64,000 nt of DNA, from NCBI GenBank assembly GCA_030280995.1, contig JASXTE010000017.1, forward strand, positions 22,892,498 through 22,956,497, written 5' to 3'. The notes beneath the pieces are model-generated. The model worked only from the letters and a program-made list of their open reading frames with translations, did not search any database and was not told the DNA's origin. Source of the stretch: Hemileia vastatrix (taxonomy: Eukaryota > Basidiomycota > Pucciniomycetes > Pucciniales > Zaghouaniaceae). This document shows positions 9,901-64,000 of the stretch, in pieces. Positions within the stretch are counted from its first letter, which is position 1; every line of letters starts with the position of its first letter. Both the position numbers and the translations under genes were made by a program.

Positions 9901-10170
9901 CACCACAGGAAATCTAGGGGTGAATTGCTAGCAATCCCCTCTCCTGAAATTTAGAGTGTCCCTTAATTATGCCAGGTTTAAGAATACTTTATAAACATAA
10001 GTAAATTAGAGTTAGATTTACATTTTTTCTCAGATTTGTCCAAAAATGAACCTCAAATGATCTCAAGTTATGCATAAGTTGATCAACTATAACAATGATT
10101 TTATCCTTCATTGAGCACACATTGAGCACACATTGATCCAACATAAGCTTTTGAATATACAATATTTTTA
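9901..10170 (+). repeat. Left terminal inverted repeat of giant element 1
   Basis: It begins CACCACAGGAAATC, has the palindromic core ATTGCTAGCAAT inside a G-run/C-run frame, and continues with subterminal motifs (TTGATC, TTGAGCACA repeated twice) ending near AAGCTTTTG. The same succession is found at 25332-25600 at the left end of element 2, which identifies this as a left-type end. The partner right end lies beyond the window. Confidence 0.75.
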
Positions 10171-10833
10171 TCAATTTAGAGGAAGAAAATTATTCTTTAA
10201 CATACCTAATAATTACTTTGCATTCAAAAGATAAACCATAAAATTATGAAAGTAAATTTAATTTATAATAATAATATCTTTTACTACATAATTGTAACAA
10301 TAAATAAATTTAGAAAATTTTTTGATCACAAATATTAATAACTATAGGAATTGAAATAACTAATGCCATTCCTATTTTCAAAATTTAAAAAGATTATAGT
10401 CACTTCTCACTTCTAATCTGTTAAGGCTTTGCAAAACTAAATTTTGTATAATTTTTTAAATTTTACCAAAAATATAAGACCTACAGGCTATTGAAAATAA
10501 AATCTTCAGTTACTCAACTAAAAGAAATATTTATATTTAAATAAAAATAAAAATAGTGCTTAAAGTGTATAACATGAAAGGTTTTTATGGAAATTAATAT
10601 GCAAGTTTTCCTTTTTAAATATTAAATGCTTATATAAATCACTTTCCCAAGTTTTGGTATGAGTAAATGTGAAATAGTAACTGCATTTAAAAGTGGAAAC
10701 CAATATAATGACAAAAATATTTACAAAATTTATTTCAATTTTATATTTATCTGTATAAAATTTTGAAAGTAATATTTTATTCATCTTCTTAAGGATCTCT
10801 TCCTCCTCCTCTACCCATCTACTTTTTAATGGT
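10171..10833. other. AT-rich stretch inside element 1
   Basis: No coding frame, repeat or structured site that I can support. The short open frame at 10560-10784 has low-complexity composition and no relatives in the homologous part of element 2. Confidence 0.4.
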
Positions 10834-13099
10834 GGGTCTCAAACTTGAACAAATATGCCTGGTGGATTTCATTTGAAAACCACCACATAAACACACCATG
10901 AAACATGGCTGATTTGGTACATGAGATTATAAACATGGGGTCAAATATGTCCTACTGTAGTGAAAATTTTCCAACCACAGCACAGGAAACCAATCTAAAT
11001 ATCCTCCCAATTCACCACACATCACATCTTTCCCAACCCACTTTTTTGAAACAAATTTTTACACATGGTGCCCCAGTAAATTTTGAGCTTTTCATTACTT
11101 TCTTTATCAACAATTCCTGAACAAATTTATATCCTCAAAACTCAGTCATCATGCCAAGAACACTACAAAATTTTCAACACAATGGTTTTAAATCCTTTTT
11201 TCATGCTCTCAAAATGATCAAGTTGCATGTACTTTCCACTTGGTTTTGTTTTATTTTCGCATATTAACTTTTATTTTGAATTTTCACTGAAAGCATAATT
11301 TTTCCCTTCCTGATTCATTTTGGTTAATCATATCAACATGAAGTTGGATATTTCAGAAATTGCAACATTTTTCATTCTTTCTGTTTTTCAATGATCTTTT
11401 ATATCCTTTTATTCATCTTCTCTCACTTCCTTAACTCTTCTTCTATTTTTTTATCCATCACTTCCTGAACTTCTATCTGGTCCTTTTACATCTTTGAAGA
11501 CATCTCATCAGGTAAGTCATCCTCCCACCATATTTTTTTCAATTTTAACTGAAGTTCTTTTTCTGAATTTGTTTTTTTTTTTTTTCTATTTCTTTTTTTG
11601 TTTTCTCAAATCACATTTCCACTTTTAAGAAGGTTCTACAGAAGCCTAGCTCTCATATCCACCAAGAGACATCTGATTTGGCTCACTGGTTAATGAGATA
11701 TTTATTATTTACTTGTCTCAAACTTTCATCACTTTTATTTTAATCTTCTCAAGTAGGTCTTACTCTGGAACAAATATAATACTTATAAATAACATAGGTA
11801 GCTAAAATAGATCTTTTTAGACCATGGATAATACCTGACTTTAATTTTTATAACCCTTTTTTGATTTTCTTTAAAGTCAAAAATAAAAGGTCAGAAATAG
11901 GGTTAGGGTTTTTTAAATGACATATCCTTTTGTTGGAAGAATCTCATGAATCATTTATTTTATTTCCAGAAAATGGTGTTGAATTTGGTCTAGTGGTTGC
12001 TGAGATAACTTCTTCCAAAGTTGAATCTTGTTTCATAGACTAATTTACATTTTTTAAGTTCAATGTTGCATAATATGCATATAGGGCTTATGCAATCTAT
12101 TTCAAATAATACTTCAGGCTTTTGGCTCTGATTTGATCAGCTAAATATCAGTTTTGGATGAGTCCTTCCTATTTTGTTATTTTTAATGAGGATGAATATT
12201 AACATTTGATGAATTTTAGCTCATTCAAATCCCACATTATTTTGATTACAGGTTCTCTATAGGCATGAATTTCATTTCCATAAAGCATAATAAATTTTGG
12301 CTCAAAAATTTCTGAGATATCTACTTTTAAAGTTGAGTCTTTTTATGTAAACTAATTTAAATTTTTGAATTTTGATATTCTGTAATATGCATGTTTTTTC
12401 TGATACTTTTCATTGTACCACTCCCAAGGTATGTAAATTCCTCAACTGTTTTTTATCATTTGTTTCCTCAATTTTTCTTCTTTATAAATCATTTTTTTCC
12501 CTGATTTGTTGATGTTTTGGATTTTTTTCAGGAGATGGTATCATCAAATCTATTTGGAACTCTTCTCAGCATAATCATCAATCAAAAATCCAAGAGATAA
12601 TCATCAAACTACCAAGGAAACTCCTGGTTTGATATCTTGTAAAAAAATTTCTCATTTTTTAGGAATCTTGTGAAGCACTTACTCATTTTTGTTTTTCATT
12701 CCAGATCAACCAAAGTCTGATAAACCAGGTAAGTAAAGCAAGGAGGAAGGGCCCTACTTATAGTAAATCTTTAAGGAGGGGTTCCAAATAGGGTAACTAG
12801 AAGATTTTCCATTTTTTTATTTTTATTTCATAAATTTTTAAATTATCAATTATTAAATATAATCAATCAAATAAAACGTTTGTGCAATTGAGCCTCGCTG
12901 CTGTATAAATTAGTTCATTTAATTATTTATTTGTATTGAATGGATGAATTGTCAATACATTGCTTGTTATATGATTTATTTGGTTTTGGTCACATCTGAA
13001 ATCATTAGCAGGTGGAATTGTGAATCCCATTACTTTTACTTGGCTGATTATATTTTTTTATTGATTTATATAAGAATTTATGAAATTAAAATGAAAATT

Positions 13100-13340
13100 T
13101 GGTAATCTTTACCCCCTCCCACAGTAAGTTGCAGGGGGAGGTATTGTAAATTTTTTTTTTACATAAATATTTTTTTTGACATGAAAAAAAATGGCAATCT
13201 CCACCCCCTCCCACAGTAAAATTCAGGATGAGGTATTGCCATTTTTTTTTTCAGACATAAAAAAATTTTTTGACATGAAAAAAATGGCAATCACCACCCC
13301 CTAATATAGTGAAATTCAGGGGAGGGTATTGCCAAATTTC
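13100..13340. repeat. Three tandem hairpin units
   Basis: Three units of roughly 90 bp each begin with GGYAATC and a C-run (CCCCCTCCCACAGTA) and end with a G-run and GAGGTATTGCC or a variant. The first and last parts are complementary, so each unit can fold back. A-rich and T-rich tracts separate them. Confidence 0.7.
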
Positions 13341-14238
13341 TAGATTTAGAAAAATAAAATTTGTTAATTTATGTATCTTGTGCATAAGTGTTGATTAATG
13401 AAGCTGTTGAAAAACCATATTTAACCAAATTATTAATAGAAATCCAGAATGAATTTTAGTCAAGTAGATATGGAGAAAAAAATTACTTATAATTTAAATA
13501 CAAAACATTTAATTAACTGGAATCCTAAAAAATAGCAAGAGTAGAAGCATGCAATGTATATAAGAGAGATTCAAAGCATTTTTTTACAATCAAAATATTT
13601 ATTTCCATCTCTGATCTGGAAGAGGTTTTCAAGATGGGTAAATGTGCCACCATTTCAATTTGAACTAAATTGACAAAGTGCAACACAGATTTGAATAGGA
13701 GGATCTCTTTATGAACAACAAGAATCATTTCTGAAAATTGAGTGATATTTTATCAGTTCAAGTAACTGAGAAATCCAGGCAAGATTGTGCAAAATATCTG
13801 TTTAAAGCTAATTTAAGGAATGCTTTAAAGAACCTCAAGGTTAAATTGTGGTTGCTGTTGTATGGAAAGTGTTCTGGAATATAAGTAGTGACTCTTCAGC
13901 ATGTCACACATGTAAGCCAAGTCAATTTCAGCATTGAAGTTGGTATCTGAGTTAACCAATAGATCCAGGGCTAGAGTGGTAGCAGTTATTTCTAGTTTAC
14001 AATGGACTGAAAGAGGAATTTTAGTGAATGGTGATTAAGACTAAGGGTGAGTGTATGATGAAGTGGCTGCTTAAGTGGTGGGAAGTCATGTTTCTCACAT
14101 GTTGAATAATAAGCCCTTAAGAATTAGGCGGAAAAGAATCTATAAAGATGGCTTGTCTGTACCTATTGCTGACTAATCAAGATGAAGGAGAAAAGTGTTT
14201 TTTTGGCTTTTTTTACCAAAAGAAGGTTTGTTTGAGGC

Positions 14239-14301
14239 AAAACACACCATCAAAATACACCTGTCCATGGCAGGTGTATTTCATTTTCTGATGGTGTGTT
14301 T
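14239..14301. repeat. Nested palindrome
   Basis: AAACACACCATCA at the left pairs with TGATGGTGTGTTT at the right, and inside it AAATACACCTG pairs with CAGGTGTATTT around a short TCCATGG centre. It sits next to the right end of the candidate 3.5-kb element. Confidence 0.75.
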
Positions 14302-14599
14302 GGTACTTTTTTTGTGGTGTGTTTATGTGGTGTATTTGATCAAGTTTGAGATGCCCTAATGTACTCCATCCCATCTAATTTTCATAGATAATCTCTATTG
14401 TTCTAGAAATATCCTTATCAGCAATGGCCAATTTTATTTTTGAGCCATTAATCCCTTCATCAATCCTTTACCACTCATAATTCTTAATATATCAAAGAAT
14501 ATGCTTTTTTTATTTCATATAATGTTTTTTTCAAGCTTTCAAATGTCAGATAACACTACCAGAAAGATGAAGCCTAGCTTGTAGTAATTTAGAATTACA

Positions 14600-16420
14600 T
14601 AAAAAATAAAAGAACCCGAGCCACAGGAAGTGGCTCAGGATTGAAATATAAAAAAAAAATTTCTGCCAGGTTTAAGACGGCAGCGTTTAATAAAAAAAAA
14701 AAAATTGGCCAAAGCCACTAAAAGTGGCTTTGGCCAATTTTATAATACATCTTTCAGGCAGTTTAAAACTGCCTGCAAGATTGTGAGTTTAAAAGCAAGC
14801 GAAGTTACATGCAGCAACTTTTCTTGCTTTTTTTTTATATTATTGACTTGCAGCCAGTAATAAACTGGCTGCAAGTCTTTTTTTAAAGCAACCAAAGTCA
14901 CTACAAGCGACTTTGGTTGCAATAACTTTTTTCTCATCTCCCAGCCAGGCCCCCCCTGGCCGGGAGGTCTTAAGGTGAACGATCAGCAAATGTTGATTTA
15001 GAATTACATAAAAAATAAAAGAGCCCGAGCCACAGGAAGTGGCTCAGGATTGAAATATAAAAAAAAAATTGCTGCCAGCTTTAAGCCGGCAGCGTTTAAT
15101 AAAAAAAAAAAAATTGGCCAAAGCCACTTTTAGTGGCTTTGGCCAATTTTATAATACATCTTTCAGGCAGTTTAAAACTGCCTGCAAGATTGTGAGTTTA
15201 AAAGCGAGCGAAGTTGCATGCAGCAACTTCGCTCGCTTTTTTTTTATATTATTGACTTGCAGCCAGTAATAAACTGGCTGCAAGTCTTTTTTTAAAGCAA
15301 CCAAAGTCGCCACAAGCGACTTTGGTTGCAATAACTTTTTTTCATCTCCCAGCCAGGCTCCCCCTGGCTGGGAGGTCTTAAGGTGAACAATCAGCCAATG
15401 TTGCTTTAAGCAACATTGGCTGCTTAAAACATAAACTACCAGCCAGGGGGAGCCTGGCTGGTAGTAATATATATTTACATTAAAAAAAAAAGAACCCGAG
15501 CCACAGGCAGTGGCTCGGGTTTGAAATAAAAAAAAAATATTGCTGCCAGCTTTAAGCTGGCAGCGTTTAATAAAAAATAAAAAAAAATTGGCCAAAGCCA
15601 CTAAAAGTGGCTTCGGCCAATTTTATATTACATCTTGCAGGCAGTTTTAAACTGCCTGCAAGATTGTGAGTTTAAAAGCGAGCGAAGTTGCATGCAGCAA
15701 CTTCGCTCGCTTTTTTTTTATATTATTGACTTGCAGCCAGTAATAAACTGGCTGCAAGTCTTTTTTTAAAGCAACCAAAGTCGCTACAAGCGACTTTGGT
15801 TGCAAACTGATTTTTGCATCTCCCAGCCAGGGGGAGCCTAGCTGGGAGGTCATAAGGTGAACAATCAGCCAATGTTGCTTTAAGCAACATTGGCTGCTTA
15901 AAACATAAACTACCAGCCAGGGGGAGCCTGGCTGGTAGTAATTTATATTTACTTTAAAAAAAAAAGAACCCAAGCCACAGGAAGTGGCTTGGGATTGAAA
16001 TATAAAAAAAATATTGCTGCCAGCTTTAAGCTGGCAGCGTTTAATTAAAAATAAAAAAAAATTGTCCAAAGCCACTAAAAGTGGATTTGGCTAATTTTAT
16101 ATTACATCTTGCAGGCAGTTTAAAACTTCCTGCAAGATTGTGAGTTTAAAAGCGAGCGAAGTTGCATGCAGCAACTTCGCTCGCTTTTTTTTTTATATTA
16201 TTGACTTGCAGCCAGTAATAAACTGGCCACAAGTATTTTTTTAAAGCAACCAAAGTCGCTACAAGCGACTTTGGTTGCAAACTGATTTTTGCATCTCCCA
16301 GCCAGATAACACTGGCTGGGAGGTTTGATGGTGAGATTTGAGAAGCCAATGTTGCTTAAAGTAACATTGGCTACTATAAAAATAAACTACCAGTCAGGGC
16401 GAGCCTGGCTGGTTTGAATT
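14600..16420. repeat. Hairpin array of element 1: four tandem units of about ten different hairpins
   Basis: Units start at about 14610, 15019, 15491 and 15965 (spacing about 409, 472, 474). Each is a chain of short inverted repeats in fixed order: ACCCGAGCC/GGCTCGGGT; GCTGCCAGC/GCTGGCAGC; TTGGCCAAAGCCAC and complement; CTTGCAGGCAGT and complement; AAAGCGAGCGAAGTTGC and complement; GACTTGCAGCCAG and complement; GCAACCAAAGTCGC and complement; CTCCCAGCCAGG and complement; CAGCCAATGTTGC and complement; TACCAGCCAGG and complement. Arms are 9-17 bp with loops of 3-9 bases. Open frames here are by-products of the symmetry. Confidence 0.9.
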
Positions 16421-16979
16421 AATAATAAAAAATATTAAAGTTGATATACATTTAAATTTGCGCTACTCTTTTACATGCCATTTGCCATTAGTTTTTTGAC
16501 AGTGTGAAATGTTAATGTGCATAGTAAAAAATCAAAGCCAAAAAAAGAGGTATTGGATATTTTTAAATGCCAAAACTTATATGCCCAGTTTTAAAATGTT
16601 TGATATATAAGAATAAGGATTTTGTGTGTAGATTGTTTTTCAGAAAAGCATACTTACTTGTTAACTCTTTTGTAGCCAAATGTCAACTTAGTGGCAAAAA
16701 AAATAATAAGTGATTAAAAATTTGTCTATAACATCTGAAGGTTAGTTTTCCAACCTTATGTGAACAAATAATATGGATAAGTGGATTGATTTCATAAAAT
16801 AAGTGAATGTAAATATTAATTGCATCCGTGTGAAACTATCTGAGGCTTTGGTTCCTCGAATTATACTTTGTGAAACCCTATAAAAATAAGCTGTAAAAAC
16901 AATATGTAAGTTTTAATTAAAAGCATGTGAAAATGTTTAGTCATCATTTGTACAATATATTGCTGTGTAAAAACCTGTT

Positions 16980-17049
16980 GCATATACGCCTTATGCAAGT
17001 CACTGCATGCCATGCAACCGGCTTCAGTAACTTGCATGTTTCTATATGC
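16980..17049. other. Imperfect 70-nt hairpin
   Basis: Outer arms GCATATA and TATATGC, middle arms TGCAAGT and ACTTGCA, and inner arms ACTG and CAGT are nested in correct order, with small internal loops between. It could form one long stem in RNA or a cruciform in DNA. It does not match a tRNA. Confidence 0.55.
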
Positions 17050-17982
17050 ATAACTGTAAGCAAATTTTCATCCGAGTGGCAAATTTTCTACTTCTCTCCT
17101 TCAACTTAGAAGAGACAGGTTATTATAATAATTAGCTTTCCATCTGTTTCACTTAAGAGTTTTTTATTCTGGTTTGTCCCTTATACTTGTTTCTTAAGTA
17201 AAAATATTAATTTCACTTTAAATATAAGTACAACTTTTAGGGAATCCATTTTTCTCAATCATTAGGTTTGCCACCAAAGTAACTTGTTTACAGATTACTA
17301 AATTAGATTTTTAGTATTTTACTCTCCTTTTTAATCTCTTTAAAAAAACATTAGAACTGATGATTGTTTTTAACTCTTGGCAGCTTGATCTCGAACTTGT
17401 CATAGTATCATCAAAAAGCTAATTTTTGGTTAGCATCCAAATTTTATTTTGGTTTGTCTTTCTCTTTTTATTTTTTTCATTCAATAAAAATGATACTTAT
17501 TTTTCTACAATAATCTATTCCTAAAAATTATAATTAACAGATTAGTTGTCCATTTATCAATCAATCAACTCCTACCAAAGGATTTTTTTTAAATTTCAAG
17601 TAAGAATATCTTTTTTTCACTATTTCATTTTAAAACTTTTTATTATACTCAATCATTATATATTAAATAATTAAATAAAATAAAATATCATAGTATCCAC
17701 ATGTGTATGTGATCAATTTTTTTCTACATATCAATAATTTATTTTATTGGCCTCCTGTAATTCTATTAATGGTAGAGGTATAGTTGATTCTTGTTTAAGG
17801 AAACTATACCTTTCAACATTATAAATTATGGATATCTGGCGGTTTGATATATTATTGATATATGGAGAAAAATTAAATAAAGCATCAACAGATACTTATG
17901 TATTATTGCTGTATTTATCATAATAATTGGGCATTGGATTTAAGCTTCACATTTAATTGTTTATGTTTAGGGTATAGTTGAA

Positions 17983-18018
17983 TCTCGTGTGCCAAATGCA
18001 TACGGCAGAATACTATAC
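17983..18018 (+). promoter_or_regulatory. Small stem motif shared with element 2 and the 610-bp array
   Basis: TCTCGTGTGCCAAATGCATACGG holds a 6-bp stem, GTGTGC and GCATAC, around a CAAAT loop, and the flanks GTATAG and CTATAC can extend pairing. Related motifs (TCTCGTACTTGCTGAAAGC) occur three times in intron 1 of the element 2 dioxygenase. A function in expression is a guess based on position only. Confidence 0.35.
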
Positions 18019-18239
18019 TTGTAAGCAATAAAATGAAGCTTTAATTCGAAATACTTGATTAATATTTTAAATGCAGCTAATACTGATGTTTTCTACATGC
18101 ATGTTGGATATGATTTTTTATTTAATATTAAGAATATAATGATTATTTTTGGAGGCCTTATTTTTAACCATTGCATTATTTTGCACTTTTTTTTATTTAT
18201 TTTTGAATTAAATTAATTTCTTATTTACTACACTACAAG

Positions 18240-19417
18240 ATGCAGGCTTCACAAAGTTTGTTTATAAAGAAAAATCACCACCGAGGAAAAAAATCAAACA
18301 ACAAGCATGTGAAAAACATCAAGAATGCATTACTTATGGTTGAAAATTATGGTGTTGAGACAGATGGAAAGAGGGCAAAATATTTTTCTAGGAGTTTTGT
18401 AAAAAATTTAGTTAATCCAGAACGGTATTTGATTTCAAATTCTAGCTGTTATATTTTCCATCCGATCCGCTCCTCAATTCCAAGTGTTATAGTGAAAACA
18501 TTTTCTATTGAAGATCTCATTCGATTAAACATGCTTGAAGCAACAATTCAGTGCATCAAAGACTTTTCTTATTGTGAACATCTAGTTTTGCAAAATAAAG
18601 CTCATAAAAATGGTGGTGGATTTGGTAATATGTTTGTTGGTGGTCGGTGTTTAGATAGGAAAAAGTCTCTATTAATTCGTAAGTATTTTATAGTTTTATT
18701 TATGAATAGTTTTAATCTATTATTATTTCAATTACTTTTTTAGGTAAATATGCTTCTAAGCCCTTAGATTTGGCAGAGTATGTTTGTTGCATGAAGCGAA
18801 TAGAGTTATTCTTTAAATTTTTCTATCAAAATATATCTAATGTTAAGTATCAAGAAGCAGTAAAACTCTGTCAAAAGCTTGGGATTCCTGGGTTTGGAGA
18901 AAAGTTTAACAATGAAGAAATTGAACCATTTTCTGGCAATGTTACTTGGATAACAGGCTCAAATGGAAACGGGTTTTCGAATAGTTCTCACTGTGACTCA
19001 GACCGTAGCGAGTATACATTTGGACTTTTCATACCTAAAGACACTGAGAAAAATTCTCTTCATCAATCTTATGACTCAAATCAACCACGTCAAAAAGGCG
19101 GAGAGCTTCATTTTCCTGAAATAGCTTTCAAAGTAGACATGGAGGCCACTAATGGCATCACAGCAATTCTATGGCCAGCAAACCTTCTTAAACATTTCAC
19201 TTCACGATGTTATGAAATTGGTGGATTCACTCGCCTTGGCTCTTCTATTCAAGTTAGTACAAGACTTTTCAATACATTTAAAAAACTCCAAGAGTTTGAA
19301 ATAGATATTTCTGAGTACTTAAATATAAATGAAGAGTTAGAAAGATGTAATTTTCTTATGATGAAACTTTCTAAGTACAATGAAAAGACTGATTTAACAA
19401 AAAAGAAAGAAAGTTAG
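18240..19417 (+). CDS. TET/JBP-like 2-oxoglutarate/Fe(II) dioxygenase, element 1 copy (two exons, intact)
   Basis: Exons 18240-18678 and 18744-19417, joined by a 65-bp GT-AG intron, give 370 aa without a stop. The C-terminal half has the double-stranded beta-helix signature: SSHCDSDRSEYTFG (H-x-D iron ligands at 18989-18997), GGELHFPE, the distal histidine in LKHFTSRC, and FTRLGSSIQ with the arginine expected to hold 2-oxoglutarate. This matches the JBP1/TET oxygenase domain common in rust fungi, which oxidises methylated pyrimidines in DNA; family members in basidiomycetes are known to travel with transposons. All ligands are present, so it may be active. The basic N-terminus could bind DNA. 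Gene Z is convergent on the other strand. A further upstream exon is possible, so the start is tentative. Confidence 0.8.
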
Positions 19418-21832
19418 TGAATCACTATATATTTAATGCTACTAAAGATATTGAAAAATTAAATACAGAAAATTATTCTGATATACATGTTAATAAAAAA
19501 AGTAAAAGACCATTAAGTAGTGATAGGTAAAAATGTGATTTTATTGTACAGGTATAGTTTTAGTTTAGTGGTAGAATGATATATTTACACACATGTCTAT
19601 AAAAACTTTTTATGAAGCTGATGATTATGTATAATTTGGTGAAAAACCTAAAACAATAAAAGTATCAAAAAAAATGGATGTAAAAATTGAAAAACCATAT
19701 TACAATAAAAATTATCATTGCTACAAGTAAAATAAAATATAATAAAATATAATATAAGAAACAAAATATAGCTTTGTAACTTGCTTAATTATTGCAAATG
19801 GAAACTAAAAATAAACAATATCTTACAAATCCTTCCTAAAAGATCATATGCATCAACATAAATAGATCTGTACTATTAATATTATTTTTAAAAATATTAA
19901 AAATTTGCTAATTTTTGCAATAAGTTTTTACTTATTAATAAATAAAGTAAAACCATGTATTATTTTATTTTTATTTAAGTAAAAATAAAAATAAAAAATA
20001 AATTAAAGGAAAATTATTTATTAATTTTTTTCTTTGAGTCATTCATTATTTGCTTTCATATCTAACTTTAATTAATTTAGTGGCATTACTCAATCTTAAA
20101 TATACTGAAATTTGTACACTAGTGTGACTTGTGATTTTATTTTTTGATAAATTAAATATTTTTCATCATATAATTATATTTTATTGAAGCATATAACTGC
20201 AAAAGTAGAATTGAAATAATCAATAAAAGGAAATGAGATATATTGAGAATAATGAATCTATCAATCAATTTAGATCTCCAATAAAAATTAATTCTAACTT
20301 TAAAAATTGCCTTGTAGAAGAGGAATATTTAATTAATATGAATTTAAATTTCCTTGTAGATCTTGACTTAGCCTTTATCATCTATCTTTAATTAAGTTGC
20401 AGAGTTCAAAAAGCTGAATTATATGATGATATTTCAATATATCTAATTGAATTTTTTTTAAAAATTCATAAAACAAGGTATGTAAAATAGAAACTACTAC
20501 TTCATTTTTAAGTAAATTTTATTATATTATAATAAAATATTAATAATTATGAAAGGGCTTTTACTTTTGTGAGAGAGTGGACCTCAATATATTTAAAGAT
20601 AAATATAACACAATCAAATTGAAATTTATTTTGAAGTGTTTGAATATTTATTCATTGAATTAATTTTTAGAGTTTGGGATGAATATTTCTTTTTTCTTGG
20701 AGTTGAATGAATCTTAAAATCCTAGAAAAATATTTTAGATATGTTTTTGTTGACCTTGATCTATTCAAGTAGATGTAAGTAGAATTTGATTCATATGAAA
20801 TTCTACTTGAAAAATAATATTTCAATAACTTATGATTGACATTTAAGGATTAACAAGAAGGATGGAAATCTAAAAAGGGTTTGTTTTAATATTTATAGAA
20901 ATAATATTTTTAAGTTATTAATAAGGAGTACCCTAGTTGCTTTCTTTTATTTTTTTGCTTTCATAGAAAGAATTAAATATCTTTTTTACCAAATTATTGA
21001 ACAAAATTTGATATCTATACATGAATCTGTAAGTGTAAAAAATAATCAATATAAAATATGAATCAAAATACAGCAAGCTAAATTATAGATCATCAAAATG
21101 TAGAGTAAATATTGTTTTTCAAAATAATTGACACTGATAAAAAGATATTTTTTAAATTTAACTAGTTTTTCAAAGACACTTTAATATGATTCCATACCAA
21201 TATGATGGCTTCTCATTATTTAAATGTCTAGATATTATTTTATCATCGTACATATATATGTTACTATTATTAAATGAATTGAATATTATTTCCAGGAGTT
21301 TTTCATAGAGAATACTTAGTATAATTAAGATAATTATGCACCTAGAAATTATAGAAATTAGATTAAGAAAAGTCTACTTAACAAAAAGCTTTGATGAATT
21401 GTGAGCGAAAATTCATTACACTTAATATTTTTAACTTTTTAAAATGCTGAAAAGAATTGATAGAAACTGTTTCAATTTTGGTAATAATCATCTTAAAATT
21501 TGCGACAAATGCTAAGATGTATTGCCATCTTAAAGAAATATATAGAGTTTTGAGAAAAATGACTTATAATGTATTCTTAATTTTTCTTCAAATTTTTGAT
21601 CCATCATTATTTTGAGTTATGATTATTTCAATAATATTTACTGAATAGCAAAAAAGTGTAAGAAATTTGTACAATAATATTTATTGATAGTTTAAGCATC
21701 TTTATTAAGAATCGGTAATAAATCTCACATAAATAAATAATTTGAGTTACACAAAAAAATGTAGCAATAGGATAAAGTATATATTTACATGAAGTAGGAT
21801 TATGTATTAATTACGTCAACAATAGAGAAAAA
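19418..21832. other. AT-rich intergenic stretch between dioxygenase and gene Z, element 1
   Basis: 2.4 kb with no supportable gene, RNA or repeat. The same interval in element 2 is only 0.8 kb, so about 1.6 kb has been gained here or lost there. Confidence 0.5.
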
Positions 21833-27276: not shown

Positions 27277-27307
<31 letters not shown>

Positions 27308-52241: not shown

Positions 52242-52434
52242 AATATCTTAGAAATATTGAGGGAAATAAATTACTGGTAATCGCAAAAAATATTGTACAC
52301 TTTTACCTTAAAATGGAAGTATCAACTACTCACAATATACTCAAAACAACTACCAATAGCTAAAGGTTTCCCTTTTTACCAAAAGAACATGGTAAGGAAT
52401 ATGTAGACAATTGAATCCATCAAACTGTTTTGAG

Positions 52435-54627
52435 TAAAGTGTCCAGCACAAGTTTGGCCGAACATGTGCTGGACACTTTTATAAGGAAAACCTCACTTCT
52501 CCTAAAAAAACATGCACCTTACCAACTTCAAATTGGAAAAGTGTCCAGCATAAGTTCGGCCGAACTTGTGCTGGACACTTTGGCCAAGACCAGTGACTAA
52601 AAATTGCAAGGAAAACCAAAAATCAATAGGCTATAAAAGGAAGTTAATTGATGGCATCAAATCGTTTTTTGATAAAAGTGTCCAGCACAAGTTCGGCCGA
52701 ACGTATGCTGGACACTTTTATGAGGAACACCTCACTTCTCTTAAAAAAAATGCACCTTACCAAATTCGAATTGGAAAAGTGTTCAGCACAAGTTCGGCCG
52801 AACTTGTGCTGGACACTTGGGCCAAGACCAGTGACTAAAAATTGAAAGGAAAACTAAAAATAAATAGGCTATAAAAGGAAGTTAATTGATGGCATCAAAT
52901 TGTTTTTTGGTAAAAGTGTCCAGCACAAGTTCGGCCGAACTTATGCTGGACACTTTTCCAATTTGAAGTTGGTGAGGTGTATGTTTTTTAAGAGAAGTGA
53001 GGTGTTCCTCATAAAAGTGTCCAGCACAAGTTCGGCCGAACTTGTGCTGGACACTTTTACCAAAAAACAATATGATGCCATCAATTAACTTCCTTTTATA
53101 GCCTATTGATTTTTGGTTTTCCTTGCAATTTTTATTCACTGGTCTTGGCCAAAGTGTCCAGCACAAGTTTGGCCGAACTTATGCTGGACACTTTTATAAT
53201 TTGAAGTTGGGGAGGTGTATGTTTTTTTTTTAGAAAAGTGAGGTGTTACTCATAAAAGTGTCCAGCACAAGTTCGGCCGAACTTGTGCTGGACACATTTA
53301 CCAAAAAAAAATTGATTCCATCAAATATCTTCATTTTCTAGCCTAATTGTTTTTAATTTCCTTGAAGTAATAATTTACTGTCCATGAACAAAGTGTCCAG
53401 CACAATTTTGGCTGAAATTGTGCTGGAAACTTTTAAAAGGAAAACCTCACTTCTCTTAAAAAAACATACACCTTACCAACTTCAAATTGGAAAAGTGTCC
53501 AGCATAAGTTCGGCCGAACTTGTGCTGGACACTTAGGCCAAGACCAGTGACTAAAAATTGCAAGGAAAACCAAAAATCAATAGGCTATAAAAGGAAGTTA
53601 ATTGATGGCATCTATTTTTTTTTTTGGTAAAAGTGTCCAGCACAAGTTCGGCCAAACGTATGCTGGACACTTTTATAATTTGAAGCTGGTAAGGTGCATG
53701 TTTTTTTTAGAGAAGTGAGGTTTTCCTTATAAAAGTGTGCAGCACAAGTTCGGCCGAACTTGTGCTGGACACTTTTACCAAAAAAAAATTTGATGCCATC
53801 AATTAACTTCCTTTTATAGCCTATTGATTTTTGGTTTTCCTTGCAATTTTTAGTCACTGGTCTTGGCCAAAGTGTCCAGCACAAGTTCGGCCGAACTTAT
53901 GTTGGACACTTTTCCAATTTGAAGTTGGTAAGGTGCATGTTTTTTTAGGAGAAGTGAGGATTTCCTTATAAATGTGTCCAGCATAAGTTTGGCTGAACTT
54001 GTGCTGGACACTTTGGTCATGGAAAGTAACTTATTACTTCAAGGAAATTAAAAAAAATTAGGCTATAACATGAACATATTTGATTGCATCTATTTTTTTT
54101 TTTGGTAAAAGTGTCCATCACAAGTTTGGCCGAACTTGTGCTGGACACTTTTATGAGGAACACCTCACTTCTCTTAAAAAAACATACACCTCACCAACTT
54201 CAAATTGGAAAAGTGTCCAGCATAAGTTCGGCCGAACTTGTGCTGGACACTTTGGTCATGGACAGTAACTTATTACTTCAAGTAAATAAAAAAAATTAGG
54301 CTATAACATGAACATATTTGATAGCATCTTTTTTTTTTTTGGTAAAAGTGTCCATCACAAGTTCGGCCGAACTTGTGCTGGAAACTTTTATGAGGAACAC
54401 CTCACTTCTCTTAAAAAAACATACACCTCACCAACTTCAAATTGGAAAAGTGTCCAGCATAAGTTCGGCCGAACTCGTGCTGGACACTTTTACCGAATAA
54501 CAATTTGATGCCATCAATTAACTTCCTTTTATAGCCTATTGATTTTTGGTTTTCCTTGCAATTTTTAGTCACTGGTCTTGGCCAAAGTGTCCAGCACGAT
54601 TTCGGCCGAACTTTTACTGGACACATA
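52435..54627. repeat. Palindrome-spacer array of element 1
   Basis: Nineteen copies of a roughly 44-bp palindrome with half-site GTGTCCAGCACAAGTTCGG, starting near 52435, 52537, 52674, 52774, 52913, 53014, 53151, 53254, 53390, 53492, 53628, 53732, 53869, 53969, 54107, 54209, 54346, 54447 and 54584. Two spacer types alternate: a short one (about 55 bp, with CACTTCTCTTAAAAAAACAT) and a long one (about 92 bp, with AATAGGCTATAAAAGGAAG). Spacer orientation along the array runs four forward, four reverse, two forward, three reverse, four forward, one reverse. Repeated short ORFs here are artefacts. Confidence 0.92.
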
Positions 54628-55363
54628 GCACAATACTTAAATTCTACTGAAGTATGTTTATCAATTACATTTTATTAAAGCCTCTTTTATTTTTTAAGGC
54701 ATGAAAACCAAATATAAATTGATGATTTTTTGGTTTTTAATTATTAATAATTTTCAATTATTGTTGCGAAAAGTGAAGTTTAAAAATAAAAATTTCTTAA
54801 GATCCTTGTGTAAACAAATTGCAATTGTTTGAATGCTTTAATTTTTTGTATATATTTAGTTTATTAACTATGGTAATGGATTTTTGAGTGCCTTTAATGA
54901 TCTTTCTTTTTTGGTGAGGGAAGGTGTTCACTTTCATTTTTTTTTTCACATGTGCATTTTTATACTTATCATTGGTGGCGTTTAGCCAATAAAAAAGCAA
55001 TTATAATTATTGAAAAACAAGTATTTTAAATTGAAATTTAGAGTCTAATTCTATTCTTGTTTTAGACTTTAATTTGATCTTGTTGTAAGTATCTGAGAAG
55101 AGATTCAATTTAATTTATTTTAAGTTTATTTATTGTGCATAAAAAATTTCACATTTATTTAATCAAAATGTTTATCATGTCTTAAAGTTTTACAAAAATA
55201 TATATATGTTTTTCTATGCTCAATAATTTTAAAATCTTTAATTCTTTTGCTCTCGTTTATCTTATACATCAATTGGAATTTTTTATAAGAAAGAATAATA
55301 AGGTTATATTTAAAAAATGATTACTATCACTCTATATACATGGTTACCAGTGGGGTAAAAAAT
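54628..55363. other. AT-rich stretch between palindrome array and gene Y, element 1
   Basis: 736 bp without a gene or repeat that I can support. A chance frame at 54797-55000 is Lys/Asn-rich low complexity. Confidence 0.45.
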
Positions 55364-57055
55364 TTAAGGTGCTGCTGCTCGATCTAGTGCTTCATTAACT
55401 TTGGCGAAATCTATATCTTCTCAAACATCAAGTAACTCCCTCTCATTAACCGACAAATTTGCTAAATATCCAGGTGAATAGCAGTTTTTTGGCAAAAATT
55501 TGGGCACATTCAAGATACCATCTGTTGAAGCTGTCTTTTTAGTTGAGCGATCATAAAGTTTCTTTATTGAAGCCTTTTCAACATTTGAATGGGTCGTCTT
55601 TTCAGTCAAGTTGTCCATTTTATCTAAAATTTCATTGAGTTTTGTATTTCTCCATCCAGGAACTACTCGCTTAGGACGATTCTCTTCTGGATTGGGTAGG
55701 GCTTCTTCTAAATCAGACATGAGACTTGTATCATGAAAAAGTGCTACAAAGCCTGGCTGATCAAAGCCCTTTTTTCTTGCAATGTCATAGCGGTTTTTTG
55801 AAATCTAAAATCAAATCAAATTAGTAATAGACTTTCTTTAATTATTATGCTTTGAATAAATACCTTTGTTTGATAAAGCTTTATCTGTGCTCTTGATCTC
55901 TTTTCCTTTCTACTTGCCTCAATCACCTCACAGTTTTGACCAGCCACCTTTCAAATCTCCTTTCCCTTGTTGACCACCCATTGCTCGACGATGATTGGTG
56001 TAAACCTGAGTTTTGCTGAATCAATATTTTTCAATGTTGAGAGCCACTTAGTACAATGGTCTGATACTACACTCCCCATTACTTGATTCCATAGTGACTC
56101 AGAAAAATTTTGACAGTTCCAATCAAAAGCGAGTTGACAAAATCCTTTCTCTTGAAGCTCTCGTTCCAAATGCTGTTTTACAGAGATCGGTACAGCAGCT
56201 CCTCCCTTTAGTCCACGGGGCTCAGGTGTTGAAATAAAAGTTGGTAGATGAATTTTGGAACGTAAGAATATAGCAGTATTTGTTAAAATAAATTGACAAT
56301 CAGCAGCTGAAGTGGCCTGTGGTTCATTTTGAACCTGTTTTAATGCTGTTTCAATCGTCAATAGCTTGTAATCATGCCAATTTTTTCAATCTGTAAGTTC
56401 TTCATTTGTTGGGCCTATAGGAAACTCAGATACATTAATGGGTCCACCAAGACAGAACTTCAAAAAGTGATAGATATTTTGGTTAATAGAATCTGAGCTC
56501 CTTGGTACATCACACCTCGTAACTATGCTTCTAACCATTCGCAAGTTTTGGTCATTTTGAAGTGACTCAGCATCAATTATTCTGCGCTGATCAGTAGCTT
56601 GAATTATAAGAGAGGGATTAACTGCATATTTTTGAAAATAAAAATTGGTTAACCTATTTTAAAACATAAAAGCATGTTGAAAAAGTTTACTCACCAGGTC
56701 CACTGGTACTGGTGGCTGGGTTAGTAGAAGTGGATCCCCCACCGCTTCCAAGAAACTGATTCAACAACATACTAGCCCAATCATTACCTACACTTTCTGC
56801 TTCCTGCTGAAAATTACCAGGTGCGGATCGACCATCTGTATTTGTGATATTAAAAGAGCAATCAGTTGATCAAATTTGGTGATCTGATGAAGACTGAGGA
56901 GGAGGTTAGGGTTTACCTGGATTTTCACTCGGTCTTTCAGGGGGAGCAGGACCCGATGGAGGCATTCTAGGATTTTGAGGGGGAGGATTATTTTGCACTC
57001 CAACATTACTTTCTAATGGAGGATCAACCTGCATGGCATCACCAGTATTAGACAT
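55364..57055 (-). pseudogene. Gene Y, element 1 copy (decayed)
   Basis: Starts at the ATG 57053-57055 (MSNTGDAMQVDPP) with a Pro-rich disordered part, then blocks matching element 2 Y: EPRGLKGGAAVPISVKQHLE, FDWNCQNFSESLWNQVMG, KWLSTLKNIDSAKLRFTP, PGWRNTKLNEILDKMDNL, LPKNCYSPGYLANLSVNERE, and a C-terminal end in LDRAAAP. Stops interrupt it near 56909, 56865, 56384 and 55421. It has Trp and Ser where the element 2 copy has stops, so the ancestral frame can be read by comparison. Function unknown; related to gene X. Confidence 0.6.
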
Positions 57056-57478
57056 TCTGTGCTTTATAAAAAAAATTATTAACTTTCAGAATATAGACAA
57101 GATAATATTAAAGAGAAATTAGTTATACATTTTAATTGTTAGTTTAATGAATAAAATATTCAAGCGAAAAAATTAGTTGAAAACTCAGTTTTATTGGCTT
57201 GAAAAATATGGTCCTTAGATTTTTCAACCCTGGTTCTGAACTATTTATAATATTTTTCAAGTATAGGTAGACTTTGTATAGTACATTGAAATCCTTTTAG
57301 TTGAAATTACATTTACAATAAAATGTCACTCATTAATAGCAGGGTTTCTAAACCGTAAACAATGCCCTTGTTATTGTTTTCTTAAACATTTAGGCAACAT
57401 CTCAAAAAGTTTTATTTATTAATCTTGCATCTAGCTGTTCCAAAGATCTATTACAAACTTTCCAAATCCTCCAAATTC
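57056..57478. other. Intergenic region between transposase and gene Y, element 1
   Basis: AT-rich 423 bp, similar in length to the 417-bp interval in element 2. No other feature seen. Confidence 0.4.
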
Positions 57479-60400
57479 TTACCAATCCTAAATAATTTCA
57501 ACCATATTAAAGAAAATAAAATGTCCATGTTGTTTAATTTTATACTTACTAGTGTCTGAAGTCCAACAGCAGTGATAACATTGTACTTTATTCCAAACAT
57601 TCCCCTTTGGTGCTGTAAAGTGGCGGCATGTCCAATAATTGAATCTTGATTTATCACAATTTGTGTTGCTTTTTCTACTCTTACTAAACAGCAATGCACT
57701 TGTGGAAACACCTCATAGGGATCCTTTTTTGTATCTTCTGGTATAAGCTCTTTAAATGGACTAACGATTAGATAGACTTTTTCATTATCGTCCTTTGAAC
57801 TAAAAAGCTGATCAATATGCCCAAACTGACTATTTTTTCCAAAGTAGAATTCAATGGTAGAATTCCCAGGATTCTGTTCATGAGTCCTATAACGCTTTCC
57901 ATGGACCAATATGCTTGCTATATTTTCAACTACCCTGTCTCCTACCTTCTCTGATGGTAACAAAGCCCGTTTAGATGTCTCTTTTCTTAAGCGTGCCCTT
58001 ACCCATTTTGTAAATAATGCCTCAGTTAAATGGAAATGTCTTTTTTTTGTATCGTACTCAATTTTTTTAATATTAGATACATACTGAGCATCATCTTCAG
58101 CTTCACCTAGTTCCAATACCCTAGACTTCCAATGCCAGTGCTTGAGCATGGTCCGTGGTATTTCTTCTATGTTCAATAAAAATAAATTAGCTCATTTGCA
58201 TTTTTAAGCGCCCAAATACAAAACTAAATACCTGGATGATGATTGTTTGGAATTTCTGATAATATACCATTCACTCTTTCAGCAGCCCAAGTAGCCATAC
58301 CTACGGGTGGACCAAAACATTTAATCATTTCTGTAAAATGTTGAGTGAAATGAAGATTTGGCTTAAAGCTGATATTTTTCCAACCTTCTTCCAAGCAGTT
58401 ACGATACTCCAATAGCAGTTGTTTTAATTCATCAACTTCATCGGCAGAAACATTTTTTAGAGTCAAAAAGTTGGTAATTGAACTTAAAGTGGTGAGTGAT
58501 TTGAGAAGATAATATTCTCTAGGTTTGTGGTCTGACGTCATGGATGTCTCGGCTTGATTTAATTTTTCTACCCAAAGGGGGATAAGTGACAAAGGAAAGT
58601 AAACAGTATAAAGTACATGCCACTCCTCAGCTTTGAGTGAACCTGACTTTTTAGATCCTACTTGTTTTGGAACTCGTGAAATCCAGGAAGGTTTTTTTGT
58701 TTGCTCTATCACATTCCACACTGCCTCTAGCTCAGTGGCTGACAATCGTGGATTACTAGTTCTTTCACTTTCTTTCTCTTTGCCCTTCTTTTTATCTTCC
58801 TTACTTCTAATAGTCTCAACGGATGGATTAGATCTTTAACTTTTGGATATAATGATACTTTTTTGCCTTAAGTTATAGGTTGGATTTCGACTTCCACTTT
58901 CAGAAGCATGTTCAGAGCCAAACTCTAAGGTTTGAAAGTGATGTTCAGAACTTGATGACTTTGTCCGGCTGTTTTATTCTTCCAATTCAGCTCCTCCACT
59001 ATCCATTCTAAGATATGTTTGTGACCGTCTCATTGTACTTGTATATTGTAGTCTTTTTTGCCGTCCCACTGGTTCAATATTATCGGCATCAGTGCTGATT
59101 AAGCTGCTTCTACGTTTTTTATATTGCTTATTTAGAAATATATCAGAACGTGCATCATCATCTTCTCTTCTTACATGCCAATTTTTTTCCTTTGTCAGCT
59201 ATTTTTCTAGGTCGATTGCGGCATTTTGTATTAGATAAAAAGTTAGACTGTGATCTTTAAGATTTCCAAGCATGTGTGAATGCATCAAGTCAATTGAGCA
59301 ATATTCCGTAGGTTGCCAATATACAAGGTTATTTAGCTTGCTCCATCGAACCCCTTGACTCCTAACAATAGATACCCGCTCCCAATGTGACTGGCACTTT
59401 TTCCACTTCTCTGCCCAGTGCATATGATCCTCATGAGTACGTAAGGAAAATTTTTCGACTTGATGCTCACCGATTTCATCTTTTGAAATATGACAGACAG
59501 AGCAGAACTTAGTGGCTGAGTGACTTGCAAAACCAGCAATCTTTCGCATTGCTGGAATGTCTCCTATTAAAGAGAATAATGCAGCCCTTATTTTTCGGCC
59601 CTGTGGATAGTGAGGTGTTTTTTCAATAAATATGCCATCCCATAGAGTCTTTAGTTCATCAACAAGAGGCTTCAGAAGATGATTTATTTGTTCACTCGTT
59701 GGCTCAGTTGGACCGGGAATAATAGCATACAAAAATAGATTTTCGGTTTTGTATTGATCTTCTGTAGGCAAGTTCATACACACCAACAAGATATTACCCA
59801 CAGATTTTGATGACCTCCAATACAATTTCCACCCGGCCTAAACCAGTCAAAATATAAACTAAACATTAAATTACCTCAGGTTTTTGTATATCCATCGACA
59901 CTTCTATTTTGAGTTGTAGAAATATCTGGAAAATTTTTCCATACAAAACCATCATATACATCTTTCATGACATCCCTTTCCATGTTTTCTAGAAAATCAT
60001 TTTTTTTCTCAATCAGCGTCTCGAATTTGATTAGTTTAGACTTTGCTGAAAGCCATTCAACCAAACTGTTGTGATGAAATGTTTTACAAGGATGGTAGAT
60101 TGCTTCTTCTTGTTTATACTTAGCCAAATACAAATTTTCATCACAATTGACAGTTTCTTCTCTCTGTCCTAAATCTTTCAAATAGCGCTTTGAGGATGAA
60201 TAAAAAGGTTGAGTACAAGATAAGATTGATGGTTGGTGTTTGGGGATATACTCGTAAAGAGCAAAGCACTTAGCACAGCATGTCTTGGTGACAAATAATG
60301 GATTGAGTTGCAATCGACTAAAAACTGTCTCTATAGAAAGGGGAATCAGGCTGATGATTCTGCTAGTATCTAGTTTGCCTATGTCACTAAGAAGTCTGAG

Positions 60401-60844
60401 TTTGTTGACTTCATCATGCAAAAATTCAGCACAACCTTCTTTTCTTAAATGATGGATAAGAGAAAGTTTCGCTGCTTGCCACATTATCTTTTGGCTATAA
60501 GGCTCTTCCAAATTCAAATTGTTTGACCGTGGTAGAGATTGAATTGTTTCCAAAACAGGCTGCCCCTAAGCAAAGAAAAAAAATAGAGATTAATTGAAAC
60601 ATAATTTCTCTTTATTTACCAAATATTGATGTCTTACAAGATCTGGGATGTTGGATCCTAAGTTAGGTGAAGCGCTGGATGTACCAACCATCTGTGCTTT
60701 GCGATTTCTTTCCTCTTCATGTTTGGAGTATGACTGAGATGTTTTAAAAGCTACACCAACTTCAAAGCTTCCCAATGAGGTCTGATGCTTTCTTGATGAA
60801 CATCCAAGCTCTTCACATTTACAAACGCGAAAAAATGGTGGCAT
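57479..60844 (-). pseudogene. Tnp2-family transposase, element 1 copy (decayed)
   Basis: Homologous to the element 2 transposase along its length. Start MPPFFRVCKCEELGC at 60844; TCCAKCFALYEYIPKHQP; LIGDIPAMRKIAGFASHSAT; GVRWSKLNNLVYWQPTEYCS; IDLMHSHMLGNLKDHS; MATWAAERVNGILSEIPNNH; a downstream exon from about 58167 (EIPRTMLKHWHWKSRVLELG) and the tiny Asp-Trp-stop exon at 57487-57479. Lesions: TGA at 59876-59878, a one-base deletion near 59823, and stops near 59198, 58976 and 58838. It keeps the Cys lost in the element 2 copy, and its exon 2 donor (G|GT) is sound. Confidence 0.85.
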
Positions 60845-61922
60845 TTTAAGACTTCTGGATATAAGAAATATGTTACTGGATGGTAGCAAATGAACAAACT
60901 ATTTATTTATTGTGAAGCACTTACTAAAATAAGCAAATTTTTACGTCTCAAGAAGTTTATCAACAAGTTGGTTACCATGGATTTCTTTGAATGTTTTTTT
61001 CATGCAGATCAACCATGCATTAAGTAGGTATCCATACTGTGCATCAGAAAAATGTTTCAGACTCGCTACATTTTACAATGTTGCATACATGTTTATCAAA
61101 CAGCTTATTTTGCACAAAGCATAATACTATAAGAGAATAAAAATTGATCGCATTTTTAAATATAGGAGAAACTATGATATAACTTGAATCAAAATAATAC
61201 CATTTAATTTATAATAATAAAGTTATTTAAGTGTTGCTGTTTTTTTTTTCTGAAATCACCTGAATTAATAAAATTCTGCCAAGTAACAGAAAGGTTTTCA
61301 CTAATAATCACTATAAGATATAAAAAAATTTATAATATTTATTTTTCAAAATATAGAATTACAGTCTGAAAAATAATTTTTTTTTCAACAAAATATATTA
61401 TTTTAAAATTTTCAAATCTAAGAGGTCATCAAAGTAAAGCTTCCAGAATCTATAAAACAGAATTTTTACATTAAGTTGCTAATTCCAAACTCTGAAAAAT
61501 TGGTATGGTTTCCGAGTAATCTTAGTAAATAAAATATATACATACTAATAAGGTGTTAATATTAATTTTTAAAATAAGTTTGTCAGCACAATCAACAAGC
61601 TCAAATAAGGTCATTATTTGCATTAAAATATTATCAAAATAAGTTGGAAAATCAAAATGATTCTACATTATATTTTTACCCGTTTATCATGCAATAATTT
61701 TCTATTACAGCTGAGTTATTTCCTTTTGAATTAATTATGAACATACATAGATATCCATATTTTATAGAGAAAGATATTCATGAGAAAGCTCATCTGTCCG
61801 TCCACTCAACTCTTCATCATTAACTATTTTCAAAATAAAAAATTTATTAAAGTAGTGTTTTTGTTGCCATATCCTTTCAAAATTTTATATTTTTGTTCAT
61901 TTTGCTTTTCATAACGTATATG
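60845..61922. promoter_or_regulatory. Shared upstream region of transposase and gene X, element 1
   Basis: 1.08 kb between divergent starts, AT-rich. The length equals that in element 2 within about 5 bp although little sequence identity is obvious by eye. Confidence 0.4.
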
Positions 61923-63040
61923 ATGAGCTCTAGTTGTTCATATTTTCTTCAGGGAAAAATACCTACTAATACCCATGTACTAAATAAAAGATTCAATGAG
62001 ATACTCCCTTGATCAACTTCTCATTTTTGCAGGTCTATTTACAATTTCTGTCGTGTGCTTTTGAATATTTCACCTCAGTCTAATGAATGGAAGCTGAACC
62101 CCACCAAAGAACAACTACATAGGTTTTCATTGTTCAATATAAGCTCTCTCAACATTGATATTAATTTGCCATATCCTGAACGAAATTACCGTGTTTCTGA
62201 ACAAATCCCTGCTATATTCCACAATGCTTTTATCCACTTTCTTCTTCAATGCAACTTTCCTGGAAAAACGTTTGCTTGGAATCTTGATTGGTTTCACGAG
62301 TGGAATCAAGTTTTGGCAAAAATTATCATTTAGCACTGGGATAAAGCTTTGGAAAATAATTATTTGGTTTCTTATTCAATGGAGTCTACTCATATTTCCT
62401 ACCTAAATCAAATGGGTGCTCTTCACCACTGGTTTATAGGTTATGCTGATAAATTAAGACTTGGAAAAGATTCTGATAGTTTCCGTGAAATAGTTAAAAT
62501 AAGAAAGTATAAATATAAAATAAAAAAGAAAGTAAGAACTAATATTTTTATCTTTTTTTTTACACAAGCTTATATAAATTTGACAATCTTTTTCAGAATT
62601 CTTTTAACCGAAATCACCTTCTTAAACAACTTCCAAGTGGTGAAACCTATGAGAATCTTTTCAAAAACGTCAAATGTTGCTCAGACACCGAAATTGATGA
62701 TGAAGGTTCTTTTAAGCGGATTTTATTGCCATGGAGATCTGAAGAATTCTCAAGACTTGCACGAAATCTTGACCAGAAACACATTCAAATCCGAGAATCT
62801 TCCTCTTATTCAGGAGAAATACTTAAGAACTTGGCATTATATGATTGATTAAATTCGGTATCCTCAATCGAGACTCACTTTAATTCTTTTCCAGTCCCCA
62901 GGGGTTTGCCAAGTGACTGCTATTCTTTATTATATCTCGCTTCTCTTAATCCTCAACAATTAAGACTTCTTAATTGTCAAGCCCCAATAAACATTTCCTA
63001 CATACTTGAACAAATTTCAAATTCTAATGTGAGTTATTGA
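61923..63040 (+). pseudogene. Gene X, element 1 copy (three stops)
   Basis: Aligns with element 2 gene X from the first Met (MSSSCSYFLQGKIPTNTHVL) to the end, with the same intron (62532-62596) and phase. Stops: TGA near 62010 where the sister has Pro, TAG near 62332 where it has Lys, and TGA near 62846 where it has Arg. Conserved blocks FAWNLDWFHEWNQVLAKIII, HHWFIGYADKLRLGKDS, KCCSDTEIDD and RGLPSDCYSLLYLASLNPQQ remain. Its 3' end overlaps SNF2 by 17 bases, as in element 2. Confidence 0.7.
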
Positions 63041-64000
63041 TGAATTCCCTAATCAATAATCTAGCAGACTCATATTCCTCGTTTCCAATATTTGGGACAC
63101 TTAACCTTAAAAAATTAGAACAGATAAATATTTTTAGCTATGATGCAACTTTATATAAAGAAAATTTCACATACATTGATAGCTCAATCTTTTTTCTTTG
63201 TATCTTATAAATGCTGAATTCAATACTTCTGCTTACAAAATACTTGAGTACATGAACTTCATTTTGTTGGCCCATTCTATACAGACGATCAACTGCTTGC
63301 TGTTCAACTTCTGGATTCCAATTTGGCTCCTGTTTCAATATTTTAAACAAATTCTCTTTTCAACCTTTTCTATTTCAATATAAGACTCTTTGACTTACCA
63401 TTATATATACATTTTGTGCACATCTCAAGTCTATTCCAACTCCTGCAGCCTTGATTTTACCAAGCAAAACTTGACATCTTTCATCATTTTTGAATTTGTC
63501 CACATTTTCATCCCTTTTTTTCATGCTCAACTTTCCTACAAGCTCTGTGTAGCTAATTCCATGGTCATCTAAAGCCTTTTTTATACTGTTTCAATGGATA
63601 GAATATTGAAATGTTGTTTAAGCTAAAAATAACTTATTGAGATAATTAATAGAATTCCTTACATTTCCAAAAAGTGCGCATATTCTGAAAATATAACAGC
63701 CTTGGGACAAATTATCCCCCGTTCTCCCCTTAAGAAAATTTCTAAATGACTGATTAGATGTATAATCTTTGCTGAATGTTTCCATGTGAAAGGAAATGTT
63801 GGAGGTTTATCTGGGTTTTCGTAGACAGGGTGGTTACAAAATTGCCGTAAAATTGACAGTTCTCGGAGAAACTCAGCTGAGTACCAAGGGAGGTTGGTGT
63901 TTTTAGAAGGCCCATAATAATCAGAAAAACGTTCTTGAAGCTTTGTAAGTTTTGAGTGCCAAGGTTCTGATAATTCTACAGATATTCCTTGCTCAATTTT
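63024..64000 (-). CDS. SNF2-family helicase, element 1 copy, C-terminal part
   Basis: Exons 63024-63105, 63175-63329, 63399-63585 and 63663 to beyond the edge mirror the element 2 gene exactly in length (82, 155 and 187 nt) and phase. The visible frame is open: ELSILRQFCNHPVYENPD, KAVIFSEYAHFLE, AAGVGIDLRCAQNVYIM, EPNWNPEVEQQAVDRLYRMG, and a last exon. In motif V the sister's GTIQAAG reads GKIKAAG here. The ATPase N-terminal half lies outside, so whether the gene is intact cannot be said. It is the least decayed gene seen in the right half of element 1. Confidence 0.8.

Follow-up and report, generated by a model that had tools for sequence, protein, structure and literature searches.

Kojima (2025) described three TET+ EnSpm families in Puccinia striiformis, with CAC..GTG ends and 3-bp target duplications, as well as related EnSpm families in other rusts (PMC12730594), so that TET+ EnSpm elements of rust fungi are, in their basic kind, already known. 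Such elements raise the question of how the Tet-like eraser of a transposon would be aimed at the transposon rather than at the whole genome. In Arabidopsis, the anti-silencing VANC proteins of VANDAL transposons bind rapidly diverging tandem motifs in the elements' own non-coding DNA (PMC10398659), and in kinetoplastids the dioxygenase of JBP2 works with a SNF2 domain that gives access to chromatin (PMC10057400). Large CACTA elements have been reported too, such as the soybean element Tgmt* (20.5 kb, PMC2613891), TgmR* (13 kb, PMC4219821), and those of Chondrus (16-20 kb, PMC6431247). Here, we analyzed a stretch of 64,000 nt of the rust Hemileia vastatrix (contig JASXTE010000017.1, positions 22,892,498 to 22,956,497 of the forward strand; hereafter, the window), in which a giant transposon carrying a Tet-like dioxygenase (element 2) is inserted in a relative of the same family (element 1).

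The original prediction was precisely that of a giant element nested in another of its own family, and it is borne out by the ends. Element 2 is complete: its termini read CACCACAG and CTGTGGTG, its two 40-base ends, with the palindrome GGGGTATTGCTAGCAATACCCC within, are identical at 38 positions, and AAT flanks it on both sides as an intact target site duplication (TSD). It lies between gene Z and the central palindrome array of element 1, whose left end likewise reads CACCACAG and directly follows the trinucleotide AGA. Element 1 contributes 27,187 bp to the window (insert excluded, right end not included); its right end should lie about 2.3 kb past the window edge, and of its own target duplication the window holds the left flank, AGA, only. 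The elements and their terminal inverted repeats (TIRs) are delimited as follows:

9901..25331, unstranded: left portion of element 1, beginning at 9901 right after AGA, placed by TIR match
25329..25331, unstranded: TSD AAT, left copy
25332..52241, unstranded: the whole of element 2 (26,910 bp), nested within element 1 (TIRs, TSD; 38/40 terminal bases equal)
25332..25371, plus strand: left TIR of element 2, with the palindrome GGGGTATTGCTAGCAATACCCC
52202..52241, minus strand: right TIR of element 2
52242..52244, unstranded: TSD AAT, right copy
52245..64000, unstranded: element 1, right part up to the window edge, placed by tblastx collinearity

Once the insert (25332-52241) is removed, tblastx (rows above 35 bits kept, array regions excluded) recovers the full six-gene set in element 1, collinear with that of element 2 and on the same strands, just as had been predicted. 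Both elements thus share one order and orientation: a hairpin cluster, a Tet-like dioxygenase, gene Z, an array of 19 palindromes, gene Y, a tnp2 transposase, gene X, and a SNF2-family ATPase. That the repeated gene set is a real mobile unit is upheld by the complete ends and intact TSD of element 2 and by a diverged second gene set standing behind a matching left end. The shared features are:

14699..16372, unstranded: element 1 hairpin cluster, ~474-bp tandem units of short-loop hairpins (one unit folds with z -21.4)
18207..19417, plus strand: element 1 Tet-like dioxygenase, both exons open (intron 18679-18743), HCD (PF20515, E 5.5e-21)
21827..24143, minus strand: gene Z of element 1, whose scanned pieces reach the Pfam cut-off for no family
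52435..54628, unstranded: central array of element 1, with 19 palindromes, each 46 bp long, at intervals that alternate between ~102 and ~137
55373..56860, minus strand: gene Y of element 1, a paralog of X, interrupted by stops
57481..60898, minus strand: element 1 transposase (Transposase_21/tnp2), frameshifted
61923..63037, plus strand: element 1 gene X, three stops
63150..64000, minus strand: element 1 SNF2, 3' part only, by similarity to element 2
31420..31809, unstranded: hairpin cluster of element 2, placed as in element 1 with respect to the dioxygenase (z -15.1)
33570..34858, plus strand: element 2 Tet-like dioxygenase (intron 34075-34130), stop in the first exon, HLN (PF20515, E 9.5e-19)
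35685..38093, minus strand: gene Z of element 2, whose scanned pieces likewise reach the Pfam cut-off for no family
39118..41061, unstranded: central array of element 2, with 19 palindromes, each 28 bp long, most of them ~102 or ~85 apart and less evenly spaced than in element 1
41286..42971, minus strand: gene Y of element 2, with stops and a gap of 16 bp that shifts the frame
43371..46765, minus strand: element 2 transposase (tnp2; RAG1/Transib-like model), with a stop
47813..48934, plus strand: gene X of element 2, reading frame open (intron 48422-48490)
49046..51412, minus strand: element 2 SNF2-family ATPase (PF00176, E 9.2e-28 and 5.2e-20 in two exon pieces)

Some distances are also well kept between the two elements, from the left end to the dioxygenase (8238 vs. 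8273 bp) and from Z to the array (1121 vs. 1378 bp), when others are less so, from the dioxygenase to Z (830 vs. 2413) and from the array to Y (225 vs. 745). Intron positions had been described as conserved; 9 of the 15 splice junctions tried are shared introns, four are unconvincing, and two found no solution. The introns of the element genes appear to be of the GT-AG type, and that of the dioxygenase has, as read by eye, the same GTAAGT donor in both elements.

The two gene sets are far from identical (55-83% DNA identity by exon piece), and the transposases share 66% of their amino acids over 815 codons. The two copies announced by the original prediction are therefore real, but rather than independent, they are anciently diverged members of one family. 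When aligned, all six genes carry the mark of selection: Nei-Gojobori dN/dS ratios (nonsynonymous over synonymous divergence), computed over homologous coding blocks rather than entire genes and with stop codons excluded, amount to 0.13 for the dioxygenase, 0.30 for Z, 0.24 for Y, 0.25 for the transposase, 0.22 for X, and 0.14 for the 3' part of SNF2. Since the synonymous estimates (0.9-2.8) are near saturation, the argument rests on codon positions, which differ 747, 504, and 1187 times at first, second, and third positions over 2526 codons, with third positions highest in every gene. This excess, found in all six genes, indicates that the cargo was under selection and, as had been proposed, takes the gene set beyond chance clustering. 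Both lineages have kept a six-gene cargo in order, strand, and reading frame, and the comparison of these two diverged members defines a minimal conserved cargo for the nested pair.

The transposases match the tnp2 (Transposase_21) model above the Pfam cut-off (E 1.7e-15 in element 2, 6.6e-16 in element 1). The transposase, as modelled for element 2, displays the DDE acids on a predicted fold of the RAG1/Transib type, and a CxxC and an HxxxH motif separate the second D from the E. The locus is thus a TIR element with a predicted RAG1-like transposase and a conserved cargo, inserted into a relative. The 5'-CAC..GTG-3' TIRs, seen at both ends of element 2 and at the left end of element 1, and the 3-bp TSD of element 2 are traits of EnSpm/CACTA transposons. 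The Plavaka transposase model scores 27.4 bits in element 1 and 18 bits in element 2 (cut-off 26.3), and the ends read CACCACAG..CTGTGGTG instead of the TGT..ACA or CATCA..TGATG of Plavaka. Starships, the giant transposons with a tyrosine recombinase captain (DUF3435), were considered as well: no captain match was found in the 27 window pieces scanned with Pfam, which cover part of the reading frames, and the elements have a DDE transposase and TIRs instead. Among the 6792 candidates of a protein search with the transposase, 43 passed the threshold of E <= 0.001, and the three relatives with an organism given are all basidiomycetes (Austropuccinia psidii, Agrocybe pediades, and Candolleomyces aberdarensis). 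The transposase found no match among plasmids; neither it, the dioxygenase, X, nor the TIR core matched viral contigs; and the 64,000 nt hold no tRNA and no Rfam match at the gathering score.

The dioxygenase of element 1 harbors the iron motif HCD, together with KHFTS and GFTR (both by eye), whose H and R we take to be the distal ligands of the iron site. In element 2, HLN stands at 34376-34384 while much else is conserved, as would befit a gene that is dead, recently lost, or changed in function. Searching proteins with the element 1 dioxygenase retained none of 1502 candidates at E <= 0.001, and comparison by sequence with solved structures returned no credible match. The SNF2 ATPase of element 2 counts Rad5, DDM1, and INO80 among its sequence matches to solved structures, and the 3' pieces of the gene gave no Pfam match when scanned in either element.

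The central arrays lie deep inside the elements, about 14 kb from the left end and 11 kb from the right end in element 2, and about 15.6 kb from the left end in element 1 (insert removed). Their sequences have turned over, with no BLAST similarity beyond chance between them (best E 0.53), yet their architecture is alike: 9/18 spacings in element 1 and 8/18 in element 2 fall within 100-105, and the palindromes have a common core, TTCG-NN-CGAA. Beside the palindrome centre, six of eight half-site bases agree, which shuffled half-sites equal in 546 of 100,000 trials, a figure computed post hoc on a match already seen. In element 1, the CpG of the core is kept in 30 of 38 half-sites.

We also observed a second conserved non-coding feature, the hairpin clusters, which the original prediction did not list; they lie about 1.8 kb upstream of the dioxygenase in both elements. 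A composition filter retains 50 of the 53 hairpins detected in the window, and these fall for the most part in the two clusters (29) and the central arrays (16), with three in a decayed array at 4263-8700 and two elsewhere; three base-composition shuffles yielded none. Two hairpins matched by eye display paired changes between the elements, and the clusters have no Rfam match at the gathering score. The ratio of observed to expected (O/E) CpG is 0.45-0.64 in arrays and hairpin clusters and 0.30-0.53 in gene regions, against 0.04-0.16 in the other non-coding DNA of the elements and 0.09 in the decayed array.

As for the remaining genes, X and Y are paralogous and X is an orphan: among 1337 candidates, its protein search matched a single partial protein, 99% identical to the X of element 2 over 55% of the query and bearing the tag lgn (taken as Logan assemblies), possibly derived from the same reads. 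Several genes are damaged. In element 1, X has three stops, Y has two in its main exon and one further on, Z has three possible ones, and the transposase is frameshifted, with a second one-base gap in a presumed intron, when the dioxygenase is open. In element 2, the dioxygenase has, besides its first-exon stop, another further upstream, perhaps before the start; the transposase has one stop and three more within a presumed intron; Y combines its 16-bp gap with stops, and Z has one possible stop; X is open, as are the compared SNF2 pieces apart from one stop close to the 3' end that probably terminates the gene. Apparent stops close to exon edges may fall in unrecognized introns, and the few stop codons inspected for C-to-T hypermutation gave no clear pattern. 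With damaged genes in both, the two copies look non-autonomous today.

To the left of element 1, we noted a third end of the family at 8977-9243, inverted, with 109 of its 113 terminal bases equal to the left end of element 1. It stands head-to-head with element 1 across 657 bp, and AGA borders both ends. A 26-bp motif at offset 239 is common to this end and to both left ends (1-4 mismatches) and is absent from the right end of element 2. We rejected the idea that this end, at 9243, closes a tandem copy of element 1 on its right side, because it is of the left type. It adjoins the decayed array (4263-8700), made of element 1-type palindromes, which is perhaps a deleted relative of element 1. 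Further left, retrotransposon-like protease and polyprotein pieces (1-4275, minus strand) are interrupted where this array starts (4263). The spacer between the head-to-head ends holds 19-bp tandem repeats with CACTG/CAGTG-like words (9575-9897), and a 92-93 bp tandem repeat occupies 13100-13339 in the left part of element 1.

We consider it probable that the two elements are old members of a large TET-carrying EnSpm/CACTA-type family, with the cargo as an anti-silencing kit. The transposase would cut and paste at the TIRs, and the rest of the cargo would serve the element's own protection: the Tet-like dioxygenase may oxidise methylcytosine, the SNF2 ATPase may assist it by opening chromatin, and at least one of X, Y, and Z may bind the element's own CpG-centred palindromes, by which the activity would be directed to the element instead of the genome at large. 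The copies seen here, which look defective for some of these genes, would need help in trans. More tentatively, we put forward as a possibility a self-targeted demethylation borne by the transposon, in which X/Y or Z would read the 19 element-specific palindromes for the eraser and its opener; address and reader would then drift together between lineages, and each lineage would protect only itself.

A number of points weigh against this proposal. The anti-silencing function is inferred from sequence, and X, Y, and Z fall in no assignable family in Pfam scans of their pieces. In element 2, the dioxygenase combines a stop with the replacement of its iron motif, HxD, by HLN, and a structure prediction from the two sequences did not model the fold (predicted local distance difference test, pLDDT, 34). 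CpG half-sites of the core are kept in only 16 of 38 cases in element 2, recent amplification, and not protection, could be why the arrays retain CpG, and depletion is uneven, the retrotransposon piece at 1-4262 having an O/E of 0.58. The equal number of palindromes could be a coincidence, given the less regular spacing in element 2, and the right end of element 1 falls outside the window.

A rather unlikely alternative would keep the same nested CACTA-type elements and deny the cargo any anti-silencing role, the dioxygenase and SNF2 serving transposition or being passengers and the arrays being transposase-binding or replication sequences. Subterminal repeated motifs of CACTA elements are indeed bound by the element's own protein (PMC2613891), and such an account does justice to genes X, Y, and Z, which have no known function, and to an anti-silencing role that is itself deduced. 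However, purifying selection on all six genes in two anciently diverged lineages makes mere passengers unlikely, and the central arrays, some 11-15.6 kb from the ends, are unlike subterminal repeats.

The two other accounts do away with the nested transposons themselves. The right halves of the two copies being about 14.1 kb apart, one may think of a tandem duplication or an assembly artefact, which we hold to be very improbable: at the joints, the TIR termini are exact and the 3-bp duplication is clean, and the divergence of the gene sets misfits a recent duplication or a collapsed repeat (the lgn-tagged protein, possibly from the same reads, is uninformative on the joints). Still more improbable, to the point of being barely credible, is a host gene cluster lying between repeats with no mobile unit. 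Three of the six genes (X, Y, and Z) do lack a Pfam link to a known transposon family, but the locus has a transposase, TIRs, and a TSD, the gene set occurs twice, and the published TET+ EnSpm elements have the same kind of ends (PMC12730594).

Nested elements with a putative anti-silencing cargo, the reading that we favor, can be set against the systems mentioned at the outset. Like TET+ EnSpm (PMC12730594), they have a transposase that appears similar to that of Plavaka and weakly to that of EnSpm, CAC..GTG ends, a 3-bp duplication in the case of element 2, and a Tet-like dioxygenase inside; indeed, the Tet/JBP dioxygenase gene between the ends, by which TET+ EnSpm elements are recognized, is present here as PF20515 in both elements. 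They also carry a SNF2 gene, a term that is absent from the main text of Kojima (2025), whose EnSpm section names no further genes or arrays; among the matches listed from the open-access literature, no title reports SNF2 within a CACTA/EnSpm element or a transposon that carries Tet. The large CACTA elements of plants and algae are comparable in their CACTA organisation, large size, and structured repeats, and the present ones differ from them by the 26.9 kb of element 2, six conserved genes, and internal arrays. JBP2 offers a parallel in coupling a dioxygenase of the TET/JBP kind to a SNF2 ATPase, but it is a single fused host protein making base J, when here two separate transposon genes are at stake. 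Finally, VANDAL/VANC appears to share with these elements fast-diverging non-coding motif arrays, here candidate binding targets, next to genes that undo silencing, a function established for VANC and proposed here. VANDAL is of the MuDR type (PMC12730594), unlike the tnp2 transposase found here, and VANC is a sequence-specific protein inducing methylation loss (PMC10398659), whereas our elements encode a dioxygenase and a remodeller, with putative binding. The pair constitutes a testable candidate: an eraser, a remodeller, and orphan proteins are conserved next to arrays that have kept their architecture through a turnover of sequence, and the two copies in the window can be compared, as nature left them, for the ways in which such elements may resist silencing.

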